From a virus, in the IMG/VR virus record IMGVR_UViG_3300044796_000233, positions 1 through 58,847 of that record: DNA of 58,847 nucleotides. One strand, 5' to 3'. A program made the position numbers and the translations under genes. Shown one piece after another: positions 2,717-58,847 of the stretch. Within the stretch, counting starts at the first letter, position 1; every line of letters begins with the position of its first letter. Under the pieces are notes generated by a model. The model was not told the DNA's origin, made no database searches, and worked only from the letters and a program-made list of their open reading frames with translations.

Positions 2717-3206
2717 TTTGTTCCTCCAGAACTTCTCTGTAGTTCTTTAAATAAGTAATAGCACTTTGTAAAAATTCAATATTCTCGTCGAACATTCCGA
2801 TTCCTCTGTTGCATTTGCTGCAGAGTACCCCTCGGATATGTCCTAATTTATGATCATGATCCAAAGCTAGTTCTCTAATTTTATTGGATCTTTTATCGAT
2901 AATAGTTTCTGGTTTGTCACAGATAGCGCATCTGTTATTCCACAGTTTTATAAGAGCATCTTTATCGATAATAGTTTCTGGTTTGTCACAGATAGCGCAT
3001 CTGTTATTCCACAGTTTTATAAGAGCATCTTTATCCTCTCCAGTAATACCGTGTTTTTTCACTAACTTAGCGCTACGGGCTTTGACTTTACAGCAGGCTT
3101 TCTTATGACAGGACTTGCATCTACCGATAAGACCGTCTTTCGACTTCTTGCTTTTGTAGAAATCTTCCAGTGGTCTTGATTGTTTGCACACGGAGCAGGT
3201 CTTCAT
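2697..3206 (-). CDS. Endonuclease VII-like HNH nuclease with internal tandem duplication
   Basis: A recombination endonuclease VII family protein of 169 residues. The N-terminal zinc module is CSVCKQSRPLEDFYKSKKS plus CKSCHKK. The catalytic part is RCAICDKPETI, LALDHDHKLGHIRGVLC, SKCNRGIGMF, with a helical tail DENIEFLQSAITYL. A 69-bp exact tandem duplication repeats DALIKLWNNRCAICDKPETI, so the first CxxC knuckle of the HNH zinc site is present twice. The extra copy keeps the frame. Whether the enzyme still folds is uncertain; the second copy alone has the family's usual spacing to the histidine. It lies between virion genes, as mobile nucleases often do. Confidence 0.8.
   Translation of the reverse strand: MKTCSVCKQSRPLEDFYKSKKSKDGLIGRCKSCHKKACCKVKARSAKLVKKHGITGEDKDALIKLWNNRCAICDKPETIIDKDALIKLWNNRCAICDKPETIIDKRSNKIRELALDHDHKLGHIRGVLCSKCNRGIGMFDENIEFLQSAITYLKNYREVLEEQNAAISV
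2892..3035. repeat. 69-bp perfect tandem duplication inside an endonuclease VII gene
   Basis: Two identical 69-bp units (2892-2960 and 2961-3029) are followed by six more matching bases (TTTATC, 3030-3035). The unit is a whole number of codons (23), so the reading frame is preserved. The 6-bp sequence at each boundary suggests slippage or unequal exchange through microhomology. No mismatch between copies means the event is recent, or that the repeat is a collapsed assembly error. Confidence 0.95.
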
Positions 3207-3207
3207 A

Positions 3208-3606
3208 TTAAATATTGGCGGTTAAAAGAAATTGGTTGATTGCCACGTCAGTCTTAATGACGTTGGCGAGGGCGTCGTTAGCCGTTGACGAGGTAAGAGC
3301 AACGACAATGGCATCGTTAGCGGCACACGTTAGCTGGAACGTAAACCGCACCGCCTTGGCATGCGTGGTCAATGCCGGTGCGGTGTAGACCGTAGTGCCG
3401 TTCTGCGTGACAATAATCGTAGCTCCAGAGGTCACACCGGGGGTCCAGCTGTAGGTGCCAACACCGGCGCCGCCACTCGAGTGCCCCGGTGTAGGAGTCA
3501 CCGTACATTCGACTTGGATATTATAGATCCCGGCACTGGCGACGGTGTTAGTAAAAGAGTTCAACCCTACGAAACTACGAACTTTACCCGTAATAGGAAT
3601 AGACAT
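3208..3606 (-). CDS. Probable small virion protein, beta-rich
   Basis: A 132-residue protein rich in Thr, Ala, Val and Gly, with alternating hydrophobic pattern (GATIIVTQNGTTVYTAPAL, AVRFTFQLTC). No signal peptide, membrane segment or catalytic motif is seen. The composition suggests a beta-sandwich such as a head decoration or fibre-type domain. It sits in the leftward head block between two endonuclease VII derivatives, which may have inserted on both sides of it. The structural role is inferred from composition and position. Confidence 0.55.
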   Translation of the reverse strand: MSIPITGKVRSFVGLNSFTNTVASAGIYNIQVECTVTPTPGHSSGGAGVGTYSWTPGVTSGATIIVTQNGTTVYTAPALTTHAKAVRFTFQLTCAANDAIVVALTSSTANDALANVIKTDVAINQFLLTANI

Positions 3607-21477: not shown

Positions 21478-22465
21478 GGATTTGTCTCCACATCGTCTTT
21501 AGTCGTTGTTTCTCATCTACGGTGTCGCTTAGTTCATCTATAAGCTTGTCTAAGGTTTCGGCGTTAGTCAAGTTTTTTGACACCGGGGTCGTCGTTTCGT
21601 TTTCAGTAGGTAGTAGATCTAGTTTGAAGTCCTCTTTACCGATAATCACTCCTAGCTGTTTTTTAGATATAGTGCTTAGCTCACTTTTACTGCCTGTAAT
21701 CTTAAGCCATAGTAAATCTTCTGGTTTTACGTAGTAAAGAGGATGCTCCATCGCACAAGCTTGGGCGTAGCCTTTGATTTCAGCGCAGGTCATTTCTATA
21801 ACATGGTGACGACGCAGGTTAGTTAGGACACGGTCGTAGCTGCCGTCGTCGTATACGACGAGGAAACCTTTCTCAGGGTCCTTAGCCTCTGCGAAATTAA
21901 TCGTATACGGTGACCCTATACTCACCGTGGTGCCTAGTTCGTAGAACGAGTGGTAGTGGGATAAGAAAACCTTGTAGTTGCTAGCGAGTTTGTAATCGAA
22001 GGCAGACTTGTCCTGTACATATTCGCCCATATTGCCCCCCAGAGTACCTTGATGCCCTATGACCACCGAGCCTTTAGGGAATTTATTTAACGCTGTCAAA
22101 AAGTTCTCAGTATTGTTTTGATAAGGAATGATGTTTAGTCCTTGAGTGGTAGTAGGACTACTAACAACTGTGGCGTAGGGTCTCAGAAAGTTTAGAGAGC
22201 TCTCCTTACTTTCAGAATTCAACAAATCGTGGTTGCCGGTGTTGATAATTACTTCTACTGGGGTACTCTCAAGCAGCTCTATGAGGCGATTGGCAATCTC
22301 AGCACGTATGACGGCCTTGGTGTCTAAAGTGTCCCCATTCATCAGAAAAGGAACTCCTAGACTCCTGGCCTTGGATAATCCCTGACTCACTGTATCTGAG
22401 GCTAGTTCAATACTATTCAAGGTAAAATGTATATCTCCAGCAACTATGCAGATAGGTTTAGGCAT
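21467..22465 (-). CDS. sbcD: SbcD/Mre11-like (gp47) nuclease subunit
   Basis: A calcineurin-type metallophosphoesterase of 332 residues, the nuclease partner of SbcC. Motifs in order: CIVAGDIHF (D-x-H), FLMNGDTLDT (GD), INTGNHDLLN (GNHD), VVIGHQG and LSHYHSFYE (H). The ligands expected for two metal ions are all present. The C-terminal 80 residues are the probable SbcC-binding region. It overlaps the AP2-HNH nuclease gene upstream by 22 bases, and sbcC starts within its end. Confidence 0.9.
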   Translation of the reverse strand: MPKPICIVAGDIHFTLNSIELASDTVSQGLSKARSLGVPFLMNGDTLDTKAVIRAEIANRLIELLESTPVEVIINTGNHDLLNSESKESSLNFLRPYATVVSSPTTTQGLNIIPYQNNTENFLTALNKFPKGSVVIGHQGTLGGNMGEYVQDKSAFDYKLASNYKVFLSHYHSFYELGTTVSIGSPYTINFAEAKDPEKGFLVVYDDGSYDRVLTNLRRHHVIEMTCAEIKGYAQACAMEHPLYYVKPEDLLWLKITGSKSELSTISKKQLGVIIGKEDFKLDLLPTENETTTPVSKNLTNAETLDKLIDELSDTVDEKQRLKTMWRQILET

Positions 22466-22929
22466 GCAAATTCTCCAAAATAATACTTCGCTGCTATGTC
22501 ATATGCGCGTGCAGCATCTATTTCTTTTTCAAAGGAACCTAGATATATGCCCTTACCGTTAACGTGAATTCTTGACAGCCATTTTTTACCTCCTGTCGCT
22601 TTGTGCACACCTTTAAATTTGGAAGTAGCTCCTTTTATGCGATCTTTAGGTCTGTTGGCAGCGTTCCCTTTCTTGTTCGTAAGACGTAAGTTCTCTCGTC
22701 TGTTATCAAGAGAATTGCCGTTGATGTGATCCACTGATAAGTGTTTTGGAGGAGATAAAAGGAATCTATGCATAGTCACCTGAGTTCCTCCTACTGATGC
22801 TTTAGCGTATATTTTCTGGCATCTGTCTTTATCTTTGTACTGCTGAACGCACCAGCAGTGCTTGGACACCTTCTCATAATCAGAAGCGTCAATCAAAGCA
22901 AAATAACCTTGAGTAAGTTCTATTTTCAT
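22444..22929 (-). CDS. HNH-AP2 homing endonuclease
   Basis: A 161-residue protein joining an HNH domain (LSVDHINGNSLDNRRENLRL, residues about 69-88) with an AP2/ERF-like DNA-binding domain (SKFKGVHKATGGKKWLSRI, IYLGSFEKEIDAARAYDIAA). This pairing is typical of phage and bacterial homing endonucleases. Its ATG overlaps the recA-like stop as ATGA, and its end overlaps sbcD by 22 bases. It is therefore inserted cleanly between two recombination genes. It appears intact. Confidence 0.9.
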   Translation of the reverse strand: MKIELTQGYFALIDASDYEKVSKHCWCVQQYKDKDRCQKIYAKASVGGTQVTMHRFLLSPPKHLSVDHINGNSLDNRRENLRLTNKKGNAANRPKDRIKGATSKFKGVHKATGGKKWLSRIHVNGKGIYLGSFEKEIDAARAYDIAAKYYFGEFACLNLSA

Positions 22930-47400: not shown

Positions 47401-47480
47401 GGGACGACCTTTTTAGAGTCAGTCTTGGTGTTGATGCCGCCGCTGAAGTCAACTGGAAAGATTTGATCCTGAAGCGGCAT
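44427..47480 (-). CDS. Large tail protein (tail tube/stabilisation type)
   Basis: A 1017-residue protein from ATG 47480, which overlaps the upstream stop as TAATG. The N-terminus (MPLQDQIFPVDFSGGINTK, LLVQDGVYTKIDNIQKRNGY) is characteristic of the large tail stabilisation/nozzle-type proteins of podoviruses. The body is beta-rich with long Ser/Thr/Val segments. Possibly a ring of beta-propellers at the end of the short tail. No protease or hydrolase motif was found. Identity is inferred from N-terminal pattern, size and neighbours. Confidence 0.75.
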   Translation of the reverse strand: MPLQDQIFPVDFSGGINTKTDSKKVVPGEFLLVQDGVYTKIDNIQKRNGYTALTSAIAGGGNLVAPRMIDTYGTELTCQDSGQFYSYSPSLPAWEKQGNYTSIDFSEKGIFYQTSVSGAADCAVVGNYTVYVYEDARATGVSPAVYTTIVDNVSGVEILPNTLVAPYGGNGTTDTSAPRVINLSPTKAGIFYLAQNGGTASAIAMKVVTISGTTATIGTQVIVQPNANLPSLPSHPSFDVSATSTGCVLTSHVFSSPDTVTTRTLDDTGATINSAAISLSTSSTVTNPVANIVDPTNGNIWVYYADTISTTHSIYYEVYDSNLTPILTSTIITSEGQNAILNIVAQSTNSTTQSVFYTVVTQDTNGNSINSIHTAIPTISGGITGIALYLLGVGVMSRVFSFNGAYYFIAYYNGPTYDSSVSSTTVPNVQPTYFIIDTANACVAGRFASGLALAITTWFTPHVATVSSGNYVFCATKQFASSVTFTNNSTFTQNTVSSYGSVAFSFGFNTLRTYKNTQAGELNILNGALLSAYDGQTCAEWGYHLYPEIYKIAQSTPMGGVIPAGTYAYVAVYQWLDANGNLHQSAPSQEVSITVASANSEVSITVTDPFLTGKTGVTIQLYRTIASGTEFFQINSGVGNFSNTVFSQVFIDNTTDSQLRNAPPLYTNGGVSENSTPPPSLVLEPRFNRLWCVDAEAPNTLWYSKQFAPGYGLSPANFNITQIQPTQGNTVGLKAMDDKMIVFKDQGILWFAGDGANDTGNNSTLTQPQTIPSGSGLAVLGSLTLVPAGIIYQTTKGIFLLDRGLNPHYSDQVFNGAAVETYSTTPIQDSKIIPNTTQVRFLCASGVSLHYDYMFNKWSVFTNHLGYSSDNWNGAYVYVRTDGAIYQENSSTYLDNATPFALTVKTSWLAIAGIQGFERLRHLLVVGDGTVNGSHGVQISTAVNFIETYTAHNPFTFVQTPFQFRQFLTIQKCDSMSLLIQEVVTGASGEFMDLTNLSFNCGIKKGLHKVRSAVSVG

Positions 47481-47770
47481 TAGAACACCCACAGGGACAC
47501 AGTGCACGGTGTCGTCGCGTAGAGAGTTAATGTTTTCGTGTTAAAAGGCTTGGAGCGGGAGATGGTTACAGGGTTAGTGTCTAGGTCAATAATGATCCAA
47601 CCCTGCTGCAGCCGCCCCAACCCGGTGTTAATCACTGTCTCAGCTGACCCAGCTAGCTGCACGTTAAATATAAAATTCCCCTGCACGGGTGGGAGGGCTA
47701 GCACAGGGTTCAGCTGCGAGGACCACATGGTCTGCATCTGGGTTAGTGGTAGCTGTAGTGGGAGGCTCAT
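47480..47770 (-). CDS. Small virion protein
   Basis: A 96-residue protein (MSLPLQLPLTQMQTMWSSQL, NFIFNVQLAGSAETVINTGL, GWIIIDLDTNPVTISRS). A strand-rich, hydrophobic sequence without a signal. Placed between two tail proteins and coupled to the large one by TAATG, it is probably a tail or joining component. Confidence 0.6.
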   Translation of the reverse strand: MSLPLQLPLTQMQTMWSSQLNPVLALPPVQGNFIFNVQLAGSAETVINTGLGRLQQGWIIIDLDTNPVTISRSKPFNTKTLTLYATTPCTVSLWVF

Positions 47771-47776
47771 TTGACT

Positions 47777-49042
47777 TTATTCTCTACGTCTGTTATTCTG
47801 GTTGTATGAAAATCTAACCCTGGTGAAAGTAATCCCGCTGCTAAACTTACTTTTGAGCAGGTACAAGAAATAAGACGCCGCTACGCCGAAGAAGACATAT
47901 CGCAGCATAAGCTGGGAGCACAGTACGGTGTGAGCCAACGAATGGTATCCCTTATAGTAAGAGGAGAGAAATGGCGGCATAAGGACAAATCCTCCCTTGC
48001 CGATACCGGAGAAGGGTGACATGGATCCATTATTGCCGAATGGATTAACATCCACGATCGTTTGTGGCATACCTGCATCTCTGTTCATTGCTGATTCTTC
48101 GATGCGTTGTTTGAGAAACAGGAGTTCCTGAGTGATGACACTGGTGTCGGACTCTTCTTTATCCAACGCGTATTTTGCGGCTCTGCAAATAACATATTGC
48201 AACCAACCGCTGATGCCTGTCGTAGTCGTGTCTGTGTCGGCTAACAGTTCTTTTAATCTTGGAATGTACCACAGCCGAATCGGTTGGTTCGCTGACGGAG
48301 TTGGGATAAATTGAATGTTGTTCCCAAGAAGGCGGTACTCTAGATTAAATACACCGTAGATTGTGGAGGCGCTGTTGGGGTACAGGTAGCGGTTACGATC
48401 AGCAAAATTAAACTGCCTTACCGTCACAAAAGCCTGGTTAGCGGTATTGAGTCCTAGATCCACACCGATTAGCTTATAGAAGGGTGGTGCTACAAAAGTT
48501 CCCTGCCCCGTGATGCCATTGGTATAAGTCTGCACACCGTCTGGCAGTGGGTACAGGAACGTACTGCCGTTGGTGAGGAACTGTACAGGGATTGGCGCTA
48601 CATATTGATCTTCGTACAACGTTATGAGCATATCATACAGCTCAAACATGGCGTTGTTTATGAAATAATTCCATTCCGGTGTAGTCACAAACAAGCTATT
48701 AAGACGATCTGCACGCTGCTGGGCACGCGTTCTGAGCTCACCGAGGGATAGCTCCCCGGTCATGGTCGGAACGACGCTCTGAGAGGCTGTAAATGCGCTA
48801 GAACCGGATCCGTTAACGGCTTGGACTTGGTACCAGTAAGCGGTACCTGAGGTCACCGTGGTGTCAACGTAACTCGACGCAAGCGGGGATCCAGACAGCG
48901 TGGTGATCGTGGTGAAAGTAACGTTATCGAGTGACCGCTGTAGGACATAAGACGTTGCACCGGATGTCTGGTCCCACTGACTAAGGACCTGTCCATTTGC
49001 CTGAGTGACGTAAAAGTTGCTTGGAGTGCTAGGGGCTGCCAT
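47777..49042 (-). CDS. Tail tube/connector-type protein with Fn3 domain and captured C-terminus
   Basis: A 421-residue protein. The first 95 residues form a fibronectin-III-like domain (PSNFYVTQANGQVLSQWDQT, YWYQVQAVNGSG). The following 240 residues resemble podovirus head-to-tail joining proteins (LGELRTRAQQRADRLNS, WNYFINNAMFELYDMLITLY, IRLWYIPRLKELLADTD, NRDAGMPQTIVDV). The last 80 residues, from position 342, are encoded by DNA whose other strand carries a helix-turn-helix fragment (47810-48019). This C-terminus therefore seems to come from a small antisense insertion. Confidence 0.7.
   Translation of the reverse strand: MAAPSTPSNFYVTQANGQVLSQWDQTSGATSYVLQRSLDNVTFTTITTLSGSPLASSYVDTTVTSGTAYWYQVQAVNGSGSSAFTASQSVVPTMTGELSLGELRTRAQQRADRLNSLFVTTPEWNYFINNAMFELYDMLITLYEDQYVAPIPVQFLTNGSTFLYPLPDGVQTYTNGITGQGTFVAPPFYKLIGVDLGLNTANQAFVTVRQFNFADRNRYLYPNSASTIYGVFNLEYRLLGNNIQFIPTPSANQPIRLWYIPRLKELLADTDTTTTGISGWLQYVICRAAKYALDKEESDTSVITQELLFLKQRIEESAMNRDAGMPQTIVDVNPFGNNGSMSPFSGIGKGGFVLMPPFLSSYYKGYHSLAHTVLCSQLMLRYVFFGVAASYFLYLLKSKFSSGITFTRVRFSYNQNNRRRE
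47810..48019 (+). pseudogene. Helix-turn-helix fragment of a mobile nuclease, antisense in the tail gene
   Basis: On the plus strand 69 codons run from just after a TGA to a TGA at 48017-48019, with no start codon. They read SNPGESNPAAKLTFEQVQEI followed by LGAQYGVSQRMVSLIVRGEKW. This is the usual pattern of a DNA-binding helix-turn-helix at the end of HNH homing endonucleases (G-x-NP-x-AKLT...EQV.EIR...YGVSQ..V..I..G..W). No catalytic part is nearby, so it is a remnant, and the tail gene runs through it in antisense. Confidence 0.7.
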
Positions 49043-53267: not shown

Positions 53268-54101
53268 TTAGTCCTTATCTTTAAGGTACCGGAAATGTTT
53301 ACCGCCTGCAACTTTTATTGTACCTTTTATCTGCAGATATATGCTCTGTCTATTTACACCCAGTGCCTTTGAAGCCTCTGTCAAACCTTCAAACACCTGC
53401 CCAGTCTCTATGCATTCAACTTTTTTGGTATTAGCTGGTTTCTTGCCTAACTTCGTGGCTCGCATCTTGGCTCGAACTTCGGTTGTGTATTGATCCTTGT
53501 GAGCTTCGGTCCAAGCCTCACCGGTGGGCAGTTCGCGTTTCCGGTAGGCTTTGTGTAGGTTATCTAAGGCTTCGCCGGTTCGTTTCTGACCTACGTTTGG
53601 GTTGACGTATCCAGGAACCTCGTAAGCTGCCTTACGGGCCTTCCCTACCTTGAGCTTTTGTGCTTCCGACATAGGAATGCCTTTGTTGGGAGGTGTCTTA
53701 CCTTTTAGCTTTGGATAATTTCTTGCTTGGTATTCCGGATCTTTGTGCAAAGCAACCATTGTGTCAGAGATTCGTTCTCTGACTTCCTCGGCCATTTCTC
53801 CATTCATGTGACCACCGACAGTCTGATTGTACCCATTCGGAACCATAGTCCCTAGAAGTTTGATGTAAAACCGCTCCCGTTCATTAAGATGGTCACAGTC
53901 TCTGCATTCTTCTAAAACTTCCCACACAAAATCTCCGGAACCGTACTCACTTATAGCTTTGTGAATAGGAGCTGGATAAATAACATCTGCAATATTAGCG
54001 GCGGCTCTTAGATGCTCTCCCCTCCTAGTATTTAAAGAGCGCGAAGTTTGGCCAATATAAGACTTACCAGTACTGACGTTAGTGGCTTTGTAAATAATCA
54101 T
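53268..54101 (-). CDS. GIY-YIG homing endonuclease with NUMOD repeats
   Basis: A 277-residue nuclease. GIY-YIG core: IYKATNVSTGKSYIGQTSRS, RRGEHLRAA (Arg) and NERERFYIKLLG (Glu). Then GYNQTVGG and a run of NUMOD-type DNA-binding units (KLKGKTPPNKGIPMSEAQKL, VGQKRTGEALDNLHKAYR). The C-terminal IENR-like domain is KKVECIETGQVFEGLTEASK with ALGVNRQSIYLQIKG. It has its own promoter and GGAG site and follows the capsid terminator, so it can be expressed on its own. Confidence 0.9.
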   Translation of the reverse strand: MIIYKATNVSTGKSYIGQTSRSLNTRRGEHLRAAANIADVIYPAPIHKAISEYGSGDFVWEVLEECRDCDHLNERERFYIKLLGTMVPNGYNQTVGGHMNGEMAEEVRERISDTMVALHKDPEYQARNYPKLKGKTPPNKGIPMSEAQKLKVGKARKAAYEVPGYVNPNVGQKRTGEALDNLHKAYRKRELPTGEAWTEAHKDQYTTEVRAKMRATKLGKKPANTKKVECIETGQVFEGLTEASKALGVNRQSIYLQIKGTIKVAGGKHFRYLKDKD

Positions 54102-54215: not shown

Positions 54216-55499
54216 TTAGGCAGAAAGCTGGACCACACAATTCCATCCCGGGGCCGAGCAGATAAGGTTGCCATAGTAACCTATACGAATCTCTAAAGCA
54301 TCCGCATTACCAACACGCAAGCCTTCTAACCCCTCCATGCCGTAGGTCAAAATATGTGGAACTTTTCCGAGTGAACGCAATTTCCAAGTTGACATGGTCA
54401 ACAAGTAGCACGTCTGCGGAGGGCAGCTGCGATCGGCCAGCACAGTAACGCGTCCGTAAGCGCTCTGGAAGGTGATACCTTCGAAAGCAACTTCAACCTC
54501 GTCGTGCTTAACTTGCACGTACTGAACCTTCGCTCCGAGCGCATTCACCAGGGCCGCGTAGCTAGCGAAGTCCATGATCGCGAGATCAGGCTTGCCACCT
54601 TCGCGGTTGAGGAACGCAAGCGCATTCGTCATACCTTCTTCGATGGTGTACGACTGCGCATTGTACCGGAGACCTGCCAAACGAGTCGGATCTACAGAGC
54701 GGTTAACGCCCCAGAAGTTATCCGAACCACCCGGTGTAGTCGTCGGGATCCACGCCGCAAGACCGGAGAGAGCTACGTAGCTCGCTACTGCACTCGCACC
54801 GGAGATCACGTCACCATACACGCCGAGCTGGTTACCAGCCGTCGTCCAAGACGAATCGGTGGAGGTAGCCGTACCGGTAACGATACCGTTAGCGCGGTCA
54901 ACTGCTGTCACCGCGAGCTGGGTCGAGGAGACAGAGCCAATCGTTCCAGCGGTGTTAACGAAATTGACAAGAGTCATGCCAACTTCGAAGTTAACGATCT
55001 GCTGAGCGTTACTGAGCGTGATCGCATAGATCGCGCCGGATGGGTTAGTCGCAGAGCCGATTTGACCACGGGAAGCCGTACCGTCACCGAACAACTCGAA
55101 AGCGATGTTGTTGGTGATGTTGCGGAACCCGCCGTCCATCTGGAGCTTAGCGGCGTCAACGAATGCACCGGCATTCGTCTTCGTCTGTTCCATCAGGAGG
55201 TTGGTGATCGTCACCAGCTGGTAGTCTTCGATCGTGTAGACGAAGAAGGATGCCAGCTGCGTAGGCGTCTGTTGGTTCTGGGCGTTCGAGAACGTATGCG
55301 AACGACCTTGCGGCGTTCCGTACTCGAGCGGGACCGGGATGTACTTACCGGCGAAACCGTCTGGGCTTTCGTTCTTAGGAACGAGGGCGAAGAACGGATT
55401 CTCCTTGTACACCAGGTCTTTCATGTACTCCTTATCGTCGGTGTACAATTCTTTCAAGGCTGCGGTCTGATTAGAGCTATTTGCGTAAGTGGCGGCCAT
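54216..55499 (-). CDS. Major capsid protein
   Basis: A 427-residue HK97-fold-type capsid protein. The N-terminus is MAATYANSSNQTAALKELYT, followed by KENPFFALVPKNESPDGFAG, YIPVPLEYGTPQGRSHTFSN, the E-loop/spine region LASFFVYTIEDYQLVTITNL and a C-terminal part RVTVLADRSCPPQTCYLLTM with LGKVPHILTYGMEGLEGLRV. A Ser/Thr/Gly-rich insertion lies around 160-250. It follows the scaffold gene and precedes a strong terminator. Fold assignment is by pattern and genome position. Confidence 0.85.
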   Translation of the reverse strand: MAATYANSSNQTAALKELYTDDKEYMKDLVYKENPFFALVPKNESPDGFAGKYIPVPLEYGTPQGRSHTFSNAQNQQTPTQLASFFVYTIEDYQLVTITNLLMEQTKTNAGAFVDAAKLQMDGGFRNITNNIAFELFGDGTASRGQIGSATNPSGAIYAITLSNAQQIVNFEVGMTLVNFVNTAGTIGSVSSTQLAVTAVDRANGIVTGTATSTDSSWTTAGNQLGVYGDVISGASAVASYVALSGLAAWIPTTTPGGSDNFWGVNRSVDPTRLAGLRYNAQSYTIEEGMTNALAFLNREGGKPDLAIMDFASYAALVNALGAKVQYVQVKHDEVEVAFEGITFQSAYGRVTVLADRSCPPQTCYLLTMSTWKLRSLGKVPHILTYGMEGLEGLRVGNADALEIRIGYYGNLICSAPGWNCVVQLSA

Positions 55500-57096: not shown

Positions 57097-57142
57097 TAGT
57101 TTATGTAGATCTATTGAGTTTGCGATAGATCTACATAAACTA
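57097..57142 (-). terminator. 18-bp perfect inverted repeat at the portal stop
   Basis: TAGTTTATGTAGATCTAT (57097-57114) and its exact complement (57125-57142) enclose a 10-base loop. The repeat begins in the portal stop codon itself (TAG at 57142-57140). It is AT-rich and is not followed by a T run on the minus strand. It could act as a weak terminator, an RNase III site or an mRNA end stabiliser between portal and scaffold messages. Confidence 0.55.
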
Positions 57143-58847
57143 TGCTGCGGCGGGGGCGTTCTGCAGGAGCGGGGACGAGGGAGGAGCCTCCGGTGTAGCT
57201 AAGGGTTGCGCACCGGGGGGTCCGGGCATGTTCGGTGCTGCCATGGCCGGTGCTGGAGGCGGTGTCGCCGCCTGTACGATTGCCTGTATCTGCGCAAAAA
57301 AGTCACGTAGCATCTGCATACGGTCTTCTGGAAGCTTGCACTGGCCATACTGGTTGATGTACTGCACGACGAACTTAGACGCTAGTTGCAGGTCCATGAA
57401 TGGATCCGGCGGCGTTGCAATACCGTCCTCGACGATCTGGTCCAGGATCTGAAAGATACGCTCTTCAGCGGCATTCTCCAGGGTGTCGATCTGCTCGATG
57501 TCCGGGAACCGCAGTAGGCGTCTAGCTTCACGCAGATCGATCATACCGGCTTGTGCCATCTCGGTGACTTTTTGCATACGCCCAGCTGGATCTCGTGGGA
57601 GTGACGATTCGTTAAAGCACTGGATGACAAAGGTGTCATCAAGCAGAGACGCCTCCGGTAGATCAATCTCCTTACGCCCGGTCTTGCGGTCGGGGTACAC
57701 CGTGGAGTAGGACCCGTCTCTGACTGCTATGTCTTTAGCAAGGTCAATGATCTGGTAGGCGAGATCCACAAATACGTTGTCGTAATTTCTTGCAAGGGCT
57801 GCGAATCGATCCGTTGCGATGTCGTCGTAGACTCGTTGTGCCTCACCAGAGTTGAGCCCAGCTGGTTTCTCGCCTGACGCTTGCATGTTAGATACACCGC
57901 ACTGTTGGTAGGCGTACTGTATGAGACGCTGAAGCTGTCCGTATAGCTCTTGAGGGACACAAGGTGCAACTTCATAGATTGGTTTCGTCCCTCTGTATTT
58001 TATGATTACGCCTACGTCATTGTTATTGTGGGCGGCGTCGACCTTGGATCCGGCTTCGAGGAACACGCGTGGTACACCAACCAGCTTGATAGCGCGGCTG
58101 ATGGTGTATAGGAGGCTGTTGATCTCCATCTGCGTTCCCATAAGCTGTTCTGCTAGGCCCTGAGCCCAGAAGCCTAAGAGGCGGGGGCTATAGTGGAGGA
58201 ACACAAACGGGAACTTATCCTTGGTGTACTCGTCGTCACAAAGTAAGCCTTCGCTACAGGCAATGACATGGCGTCCGTCTTTAGCGTTATTACCAGAAGG
58301 CAAGTGCCAGCCTTCGACTACCATGACGAGGTCTGACACCGTCTTGGACGAGTCGGCGCTGTTGTCGGGGTAGGCGGCGGAGGCGTTGGTGATCATCGCA
58401 TCCTTGCCTTCGAACATGTCTTTCAGCACCGAGCGGTCAATGAGCTTCATTTGGTACAGTTGCCGCGGCTCACCGTAGATGCCTTCGTTTGGGTCAGTGA
58501 GGAGCTCTGTAAGTAGTACGCGATCGACGCCGACTCGATTGTCCGGCGTCTCGTAAATCTTTAAGCAACCGGTGCCGGTAACAAGCGCGTCACGAAGGAT
58601 GGTGGCAGCTTTGTCGTAGGACTTAGTTTGATAGAACTCGCCTTGAATAAAGTTATTTAGTTGCTTAGCTAAGCGGCGTTCTTTATAGTCGCTGTTGTCG
58701 GTGAGGAACACCGGGGCTGGGCGGCTTTGGCTGATACGGCTCACCAGGGTATCGGCTGCACTTTGTACTACGTTGAACGTCGGGCGATCGGCAGGAAGAC
58801 CGGTGCTTTGGTCTAGCTTCGTCATGTTGCTGCCGATGAAGTTGTAC
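57140..58847 (-). CDS. Portal protein, C-terminal part (5' end outside window)
   Basis: Second piece of the portal gene. The frame is open to the right edge; the Met at 58825 is internal, and the residues before it match codons 73-79 of the left copy. The region includes SAADTLVSRISQSRPAPVFL, LRDALVTGTGCLKIYE, HYSPRLLGFWAQGLAEQLMG followed by MEINSLLYTISRAIKL, GEAQRVYDDIATDRFAALAR, and a Pro/Ala-rich C-terminus (TPPPAPAMAAPNMPGPPGAQ). Bases 57977-58847 repeat the left end with about 5% substitutions. Confidence 0.85.
   Translation of the reverse strand, partial: YNFIGSNMTKLDQSTGLPADRPTFNVVQSAADTLVSRISQSRPAPVFLTDNSDYKERRLAKQLNNFIQGEFYQTKSYDKAATILRDALVTGTGCLKIYETPDNRVGVDRVLLTELLTDPNEGIYGEPRQLYQMKLIDRSVLKDMFEGKDAMITNASAAYPDNSADSSKTVSDLVMVVEGWHLPSGNNAKDGRHVIACSEGLLCDDEYTKDKFPFVFLHYSPRLLGFWAQGLAEQLMGTQMEINSLLYTISRAIKLVGVPRVFLEAGSKVDAAHNNNDVGVIIKYRGTKPIYEVAPCVPQELYGQLQRLIQYAYQQCGVSNMQASGEKPAGLNSGEAQRVYDDIATDRFAALARNYDNVFVDLAYQIIDLAKDIAVRDGSYSTVYPDRKTGRKEIDLPEASLLDDTFVIQCFNESSLPRDPAGRMQKVTEMAQAGMIDLREARRLLRFPDIEQIDTLENAAEERIFQILDQIVEDGIATPPDPFMDLQLASKFVVQYINQYGQCKLPEDRMQMLRDFFAQIQAIVQAATPPPAPAMAAPNMPGPPGAQPLATPEAPPSSPLLQNAPAAA
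57977..58847. repeat. Right copy of near-identical contig ends
   Basis: Partner of 1-871. The match starts at GATTGGTTTCGTCCC and runs to the last base. The differences spread evenly, so this is a second natural variant rather than sequencing noise at an end. Counting one copy gives a unit of 57,976 bp. Confidence 0.9.

Follow-up and report, generated by a model that had tools for sequence, protein, structure and literature searches.

A putative HNH endonuclease remnant read in antisense as the C-terminus of a predicted phage head-tail adaptor, with evidence that antisense insertions may keep their reverse strand readable

In phage T4, segD encodes a GIY-YIG endonuclease that lies antisense between genes 23 and 24 and is the sole antisense one in that phage (PMC2988022). 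It resembles the locus studied here, the junction behind a predicted head-tail adaptor gene, in that a free-standing endonuclease runs opposite to the flanking structural genes. However, terminators around segD were described in that review and no readable reverse strand was reported there (PMC2988022). For mobE and other T4 endonucleases, translational coupling to the upstream gene was suggested (UAAUGA), and the same review described overlapping stop and start codons, as well as ribosomes that re-initiate no more than about seven codons away from a stop (PMC2988022). Such overlaps occur at the insertion junction in the mobE-type cases and at the adaptor site alike, but in T4 it is the endonuclease that is coupled, whereas at the adaptor site the coupled ORF would be its antisense reading. 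In the E. coli gal operon, a failed start of the next gene at a cistron junction was linked to Rho-dependent termination (PMC9239205). Antisense overlapping genes, such as the overprinting cases of E. coli O157:H7, also have both strands open in one stretch of DNA (PMC9927249). Unlike in those cases, the reverse product described here bears no sign of a function of its own, and only its openness appears to be constrained. In our literature search, with subscription papers mostly beyond reach, an open reverse strand in endonuclease genes was nowhere reported.

The DNA analysed (the window) is a 58,847-base contig of an uncultured tailed phage with its structural genes on the minus strand. No near relative of the record was found. 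The minus-strand ORF at 47777-49042 is open throughout and encodes 421 amino acids. It lies in the structural operon alongside portal (57140-58825) and capsid (54216-55499) genes, both upstream of it on the same strand, as is expected of a podovirus head-tail adaptor gene. Relatives, the AF2 model, Foldseek and FN3 matches together delimit the native part as residues 1-352 (47987-49042, minus strand), an N-terminal FN3 domain and a podovirus adaptor body ending in ...GKGGF. The AF2 model had a mean pLDDT of 80, with the body mostly above 90, and Foldseek matched the body to the podovirus portal-tail adaptor chains 7z47, 9nwi, 7wmp and 8zkk (E 1e-6 to 4e-5). An earlier reading, made from the sequence alone, had called the product a tail protein. 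It was right about a structural protein, but the product is best called a predicted podovirus-type head-tail adaptor with an N-terminal FN3 domain. The fold of the body is shared with the adaptors of SU10 (7z47), Pa223 (9nwi), KHP30 (7wmp) and VP1 (8zkk), which differ from the window protein in that the latter has the FN3 domain, a Gly-rich C-terminus and the antisense extension. Searches of cultured phages with the adaptor, as DNA and as protein, gave no match. The next gene of the operon (47480-47770, minus strand, 96 amino acids) is a conserved partner, found behind the adaptor gene in nearly all relatives. The window also contains an intact co-directional GIY-YIG homing endonuclease gene of 277 amino acids directly downstream of the capsid gene (53268-54101, minus strand).

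On the plus strand, the adaptor gene is overlapped by a frame at 47810-48019 which reads KSNPGESNPAAKLTFEQVQEIRRRYAEEDISQHKLGAQYGVSQRMVSLIVRGEKWRHKDKSSLADTGEG followed by a stop, 69 codons between two stops (codons at 47810-48016). As the sequence-only reading had stated, it has no start: no ATG, GTG or TTG occurs within the 69 codons, and the frame is not a complete ORF of an HNH_3-HTH endonuclease. BLASTP aligned its residues 2-56 with the C-terminus of a full-length HNH protein from a relative, L002 (62% identity over 55 residues, E=1e-22), the outcome of the search against HNH endonucleases which that reading had proposed. The peptide also matched the PHROG endonuclease family phrog_6156 (E=2.5e-7) and Pfam Sigma70_r4 (E=1.1e-4, below that family's curated cut-off). 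Such similarity is confirmed to be far beyond chance for the predicted helix-turn-helix (HTH), and it supports reading the peptide as the last third of an HNH homing-type endonuclease. The remnant itself covers 47813-47977 on the plus strand, 55 codons corresponding to residues 100-154 of the L002 HNH protein, and carries a putative C-terminal HTH DNA-binding module. In free-standing phage HNH endonucleases, an HNH_3 domain (PF13392) is combined with such a C-terminal HTH (PHROG 6156/59); intact versions stand at the same junction in relatives, where both empty and occupied alleles exist. The window copy differs from them in that the nuclease domain and the start codon are gone. The HNH nuclease motif (PF13392) was absent from 47777-48019, and the above-cut-off HNH_3 match of the window lies elsewhere, at 22660-22749. 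It belongs to a second, co-directional HNH gene (22444-22929, minus strand, 161 amino acids) between RecA-like and phosphoesterase-like genes, whose C-terminus was judged by eye to be AP2-like. When PDB was searched by profile with the HNH alignment, no relative emerged. An intein-like protein at L082:3338-4504 (CFAGETPVITEMGTRQIRD...) contains the same HTH module, with 60% identity to the remnant in the window.

The plus-strand frame is codon-aligned with the adaptor frame, which reads straight through it as previously described. The earlier boundary had to be moved: residues from 342 onwards had been taken as antisense of the nuclease, and the C-terminus is indeed antisense, but residues 342-352 (SPFSGIGKGGF) are the native Gly-rich/aromatic end found in relatives, so that the last native residue is 352 and the foreign part begins at 353, about ten residues later. 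Therefore the last ten residues of the plus-strand frame (KSSLADTGEG), which together with its stop run into native adaptor DNA, are the antisense of adaptor DNA and not nuclease. Since ...GKGGF is followed by 69 further codons up to TAA, the insert consists of the 207 nt at 47780-47986 that separate the last native codon from the stop, and it encodes on the minus strand residues 353-421 as the antisense of the HNH remnant. The TAA (47777-47779, minus strand) lies 6 nt before the ATG of the next gene. When the extension alone was used for a scan, L002 was the only match, indicating that the tail is not a shared family domain. Between the window and L002, the HTH frame was 62% identical and the antisense frame 44%, and the differences concentrated at the third position of HTH codons (30 of 59). 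The better preservation of the HTH reading and this third-position bias indicate that the stretch evolved as nuclease coding sequence rather than as an adaptor tail. In the AF2 model residues 322-421 were of low confidence, except for a predicted hydrophobic helix (368-397) of intermediate confidence.

From the viral collection, 86 distinct relatives with a readable adaptor end were obtained, after exclusion of the truncated L080 and of L108 with its unrelated continuation. In 84 of them the adaptor stopped after the Gly-rich stretch, mostly with Gly plus an aromatic residue (GGW, GGF etc.), at the equivalent of window residue 352. Homologues had been expected to stop near residue 340; they do so at about residue 350. 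In most relatives the adaptor stop overlaps or abuts the start of the next gene, e.g. TAATG. Only L002 and L067 among the 86, and the later-found L280, had adaptors running past the native end, and in each of the three an intact HNH gene lies antisense at that place. No extension was present in relatives with empty sites, and a comparable one was found only where an antisense HNH gene sits. Furthermore, no homologue shared the last residues without the HTH frame: L002 and L067, the only ones with an aligned open extension, carry the HTH inside intact HNH genes. Alignments past residue 352 in L028, L052 and L053 were rejected as extensions because they ran through stop codons; their true ends were established separately. 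In L002 the insert was placed exactly between the last sense codon TGG and TAATG, and the adaptor frame reaches the native stop after crossing the whole of the intact nuclease gene (171 codons). A long extension alongside an intact nuclease argues against the earlier proposal of a new tail born from a mobile-element scar. Because relatives with intact antisense nucleases already read through, the extension probably arrives with the insertion and not with decay. The central idea of that proposal, an antisense homing-endonuclease fragment serving as the C-terminus of a structural protein, nevertheless appears to be right.

Inserts stand at the adaptor junction in about a dozen relatives, several of them endonucleases, while other relatives have the empty site. 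Antisense HNH genes occur in L002, L067, L018, L028 and L280, the last found independently in an HNH scan, and the PF13392 motif is present at the junction in L002, L067 and L018. Sense HNH genes occur in L023 and L005, a sense GIY-YIG gene in L031, and unrelated cargo in L014, L020, L025, L050 and L062. By this comparison the junction between the adaptor gene and the next gene is an endonuclease hotspot, hit repeatedly in this phage group. In L025 and L020 the cargo at the hotspot includes a small membrane-like ORF of about 60 amino acids.

The intact relatives at the junction differ from free-standing HNH endonucleases in general in being antisense to the operon with the reverse strand kept open. 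As the reverse reading is codon-aligned with the nuclease, reverse stops can arise solely from the nuclease codons TTA, CTA and TCA (Leu/Ser). The five intact antisense genes contained 3 such codons in the codon-aligned phase, while 22.9 were expected when synonymous codons were drawn from the usage of the same phage (ratio 0.13; binomial P=5e-7 in four of the five genes). No depletion was found in the other two reverse phases, where observed/expected was 1.34 and 1.27, and other A-ending codons were not depleted (control made on the window and four of the genes). By these phase and A-ending codon controls, strand composition was rejected as an explanation for the lack of stops. The three reverse stops that do occur (L028, L067 and L280) are each a TAG with an ATG right behind it, a combination produced by a His-Leu pair. 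The operon strand was translatable without a break at all six loci (the five and the window), restarts being placed at 0 to -11 nt. The final stop lies at most 6 nt ahead of the next start and at most 11 nt beyond it. With lenient restarts, the late strand stayed continuous in 3-34% of random synonymous recodings, so continuity is only mildly unusual per locus and the weight of the case falls on the stop-codon depletion. The open antisense frame of the window taken alone is unremarkable (P=0.085 given local codon usage). It appears that reverse amino acids are not conserved, while stops are avoided only in the codon-aligned reverse frame of the intact genes.

HNH genes were also collected irrespective of the adaptor and classed by the strand of their neighbours, antisense genes being called tight when both neighbours lay on the opposite strand at ≤50 nt. 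In co-directional genes stop-type codons were at 1.41 of expected and control codons at 1.36, i.e. without specific avoidance. Tight antisense genes gave 0.30 for stop-type against 1.47 for control codons, whereas loosely placed antisense genes gave 1.17 against 1.47. By permutation, the tight genes (n=9, including L280 of the adaptor site) differed from the co-directional ones (n=71; p=5e-5; control codons p=0.77) and from the loose ones (p=0.028). Most of the tightly embedded antisense genes are bridged by a single reverse ORF, which is 163-211 codons long in L277, L280, L286, L324 and L339. Only one tight gene was added by a replication sample, together with a further bridged locus, L401, from the phage that also has L277. 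The bridging ORFs of these six loci begin -4 to +5 nt from the previous stop and end -3 to 0 nt from the next start. In L306 the reverse ORF begins at -4 but overruns the called next start by 86 nt. There were exceptions: L335 has a tight antisense HNH gene yet is full of antisense stops, and in a cultured isolate, Gordonia phage Belphegor, the antisense HNH gene is embedded without a bridge. Belphegor's was the only one embedded antisense among eight cultured-phage HNH loci inspected; it lies beside minor-tail genes (gene 34, L444) and may serve as a bench system, though unbridged. In such relatives as Phinally and Leonard the flanks match and the HNH does not. In bacterial genomes antisense HNH genes were few, and none was clearly bridged. 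Because the cut-off was set after the first sample had been seen, L280 is among the nine tight genes and the replication sample is small, readability of antisense HNH genes across phages is a strong lead from codon counts rather than a settled rule.

These observations can be assembled into a model in which a free-standing HNH gene with a C-terminal HTH would insert antisense at the adaptor stop codon. Where structural genes are tightly coupled in an operon, such an insertion would put several hundred bases out of translation, and the next gene would lose its coupling. If the insert directly follows the last sense codon, ahead of the stop, and has an open reverse strand, ribosomes leaving the adaptor gene could cross it and terminate beside the next start, and both costs, lost coupling and polarity, would be spared. 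Translation across the insert would then be selected because the next structural gene stays expressed, whether by stop-start coupling, by protection from Rho-dependent polarity or by both. The nuclease domain and the start codon of the window copy would subsequently have been lost, leaving the 207-nt in-frame stump that may be translated as a 69-residue antisense tail of the adaptor. We consider this whole account, antisense insertion at the adaptor stop, selection of a readable reverse strand and decay in the window, to be probable. We infer that selection was for ribosome passage (coupling or anti-polarity) and not for a new protein. What goes beyond the sequence-only reading is the evidence that antisense insertions may keep their reverse strand readable.

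A neutral accident would account for part of the data: the remnant happened to be open in the adaptor frame, readability was unselected and the tail is a tolerated by-product. The chance openness calculated for the window alone, the low AF2 confidence of the C-terminal region and antisense residues conserved no more than HTH conservation gives all agree with it. However, five intact relatives at the same site share the depletion in the codon-aligned phase only, and the same bias recurs in tightly embedded antisense HNH genes of other phages, and we regard such an accident as unlikely. If, on the other hand, selection had favoured the antisense product itself, the extension would be a co-opted virion part and a genuine new protein tail. 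The frame is open up to the stop beside the next gene and the helix at 368-397 is predicted, but same-site relatives have extensions differing in length and sequence, or none, and the antisense reading is without amino-acid conservation; co-option therefore seems very unlikely.

Two further explanations question the reading of the window sequence. The nearest ATG (47806-47808, plus strand) stands directly before the remnant, one base out of its frame (ATGAAAATCTAACCC), so a one-base sequencing error or recent frameshift between the two is possible. The plus strand might accordingly encode a present or very recent functional stand-alone HTH DNA-binding protein, masked by an error or mutation in the AAAA run after that ATG, and the adaptor would then end in another frame, overlapping the start of the next gene. 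The HTH residues are intact, and phage proteins annotated 'helix-turn-helix DNA binding domain protein' match the peptide. Against this, as sequenced the frame is without a start codon, it meets no stop before it enters native adaptor DNA, and the segment is the C-terminus of HNH nucleases in L002 and L067; we hold a stand-alone protein to be distinctly unlikely. An assembly chimera that fused an HNH fragment to the adaptor gene would fit a single metagenomic record with no near relative, but this junction is occupied by antisense HNH genes in other contigs too, of 5 to 59 kb, and the gene that comes next is as expected, which leaves misassembly highly improbable.

With some reserve, we favour a general two-strand rule: antisense endonucleases in translated phage operons would keep a codon-aligned reverse ORF that runs from the previous stop to the next start, or extends the preceding protein at its C-terminus, so that ribosomes pass. 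In the window, an example in decay, the reverse reading would have survived the loss of the nuclease. If the selection is real, it would provide a simple testable rule for the survival of selfish genes inside essential phage operons, and gene callers would be predicted sometimes to annotate the reverse ORF and miss the nuclease. It would also offer a route to antisense-derived C-terminal extensions on structural proteins, which come in with an intact element and, as in the window, can persist after it has decayed.

Possible traces of the insertion itself were seen at two loci. In L067, each end of the insert has a GGCTGG (about 1077-1085 and 1605-1613), a possible short duplication restoring the GTG start of the next gene. 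In L324 (HNH gene at 3001-3453) the reverse ORF opens with a near-copy of the N-terminus of the next gene (MAINTFATLKTAVANW vs MAISNYSELKTAVATW), suggesting a target duplication at insertion.
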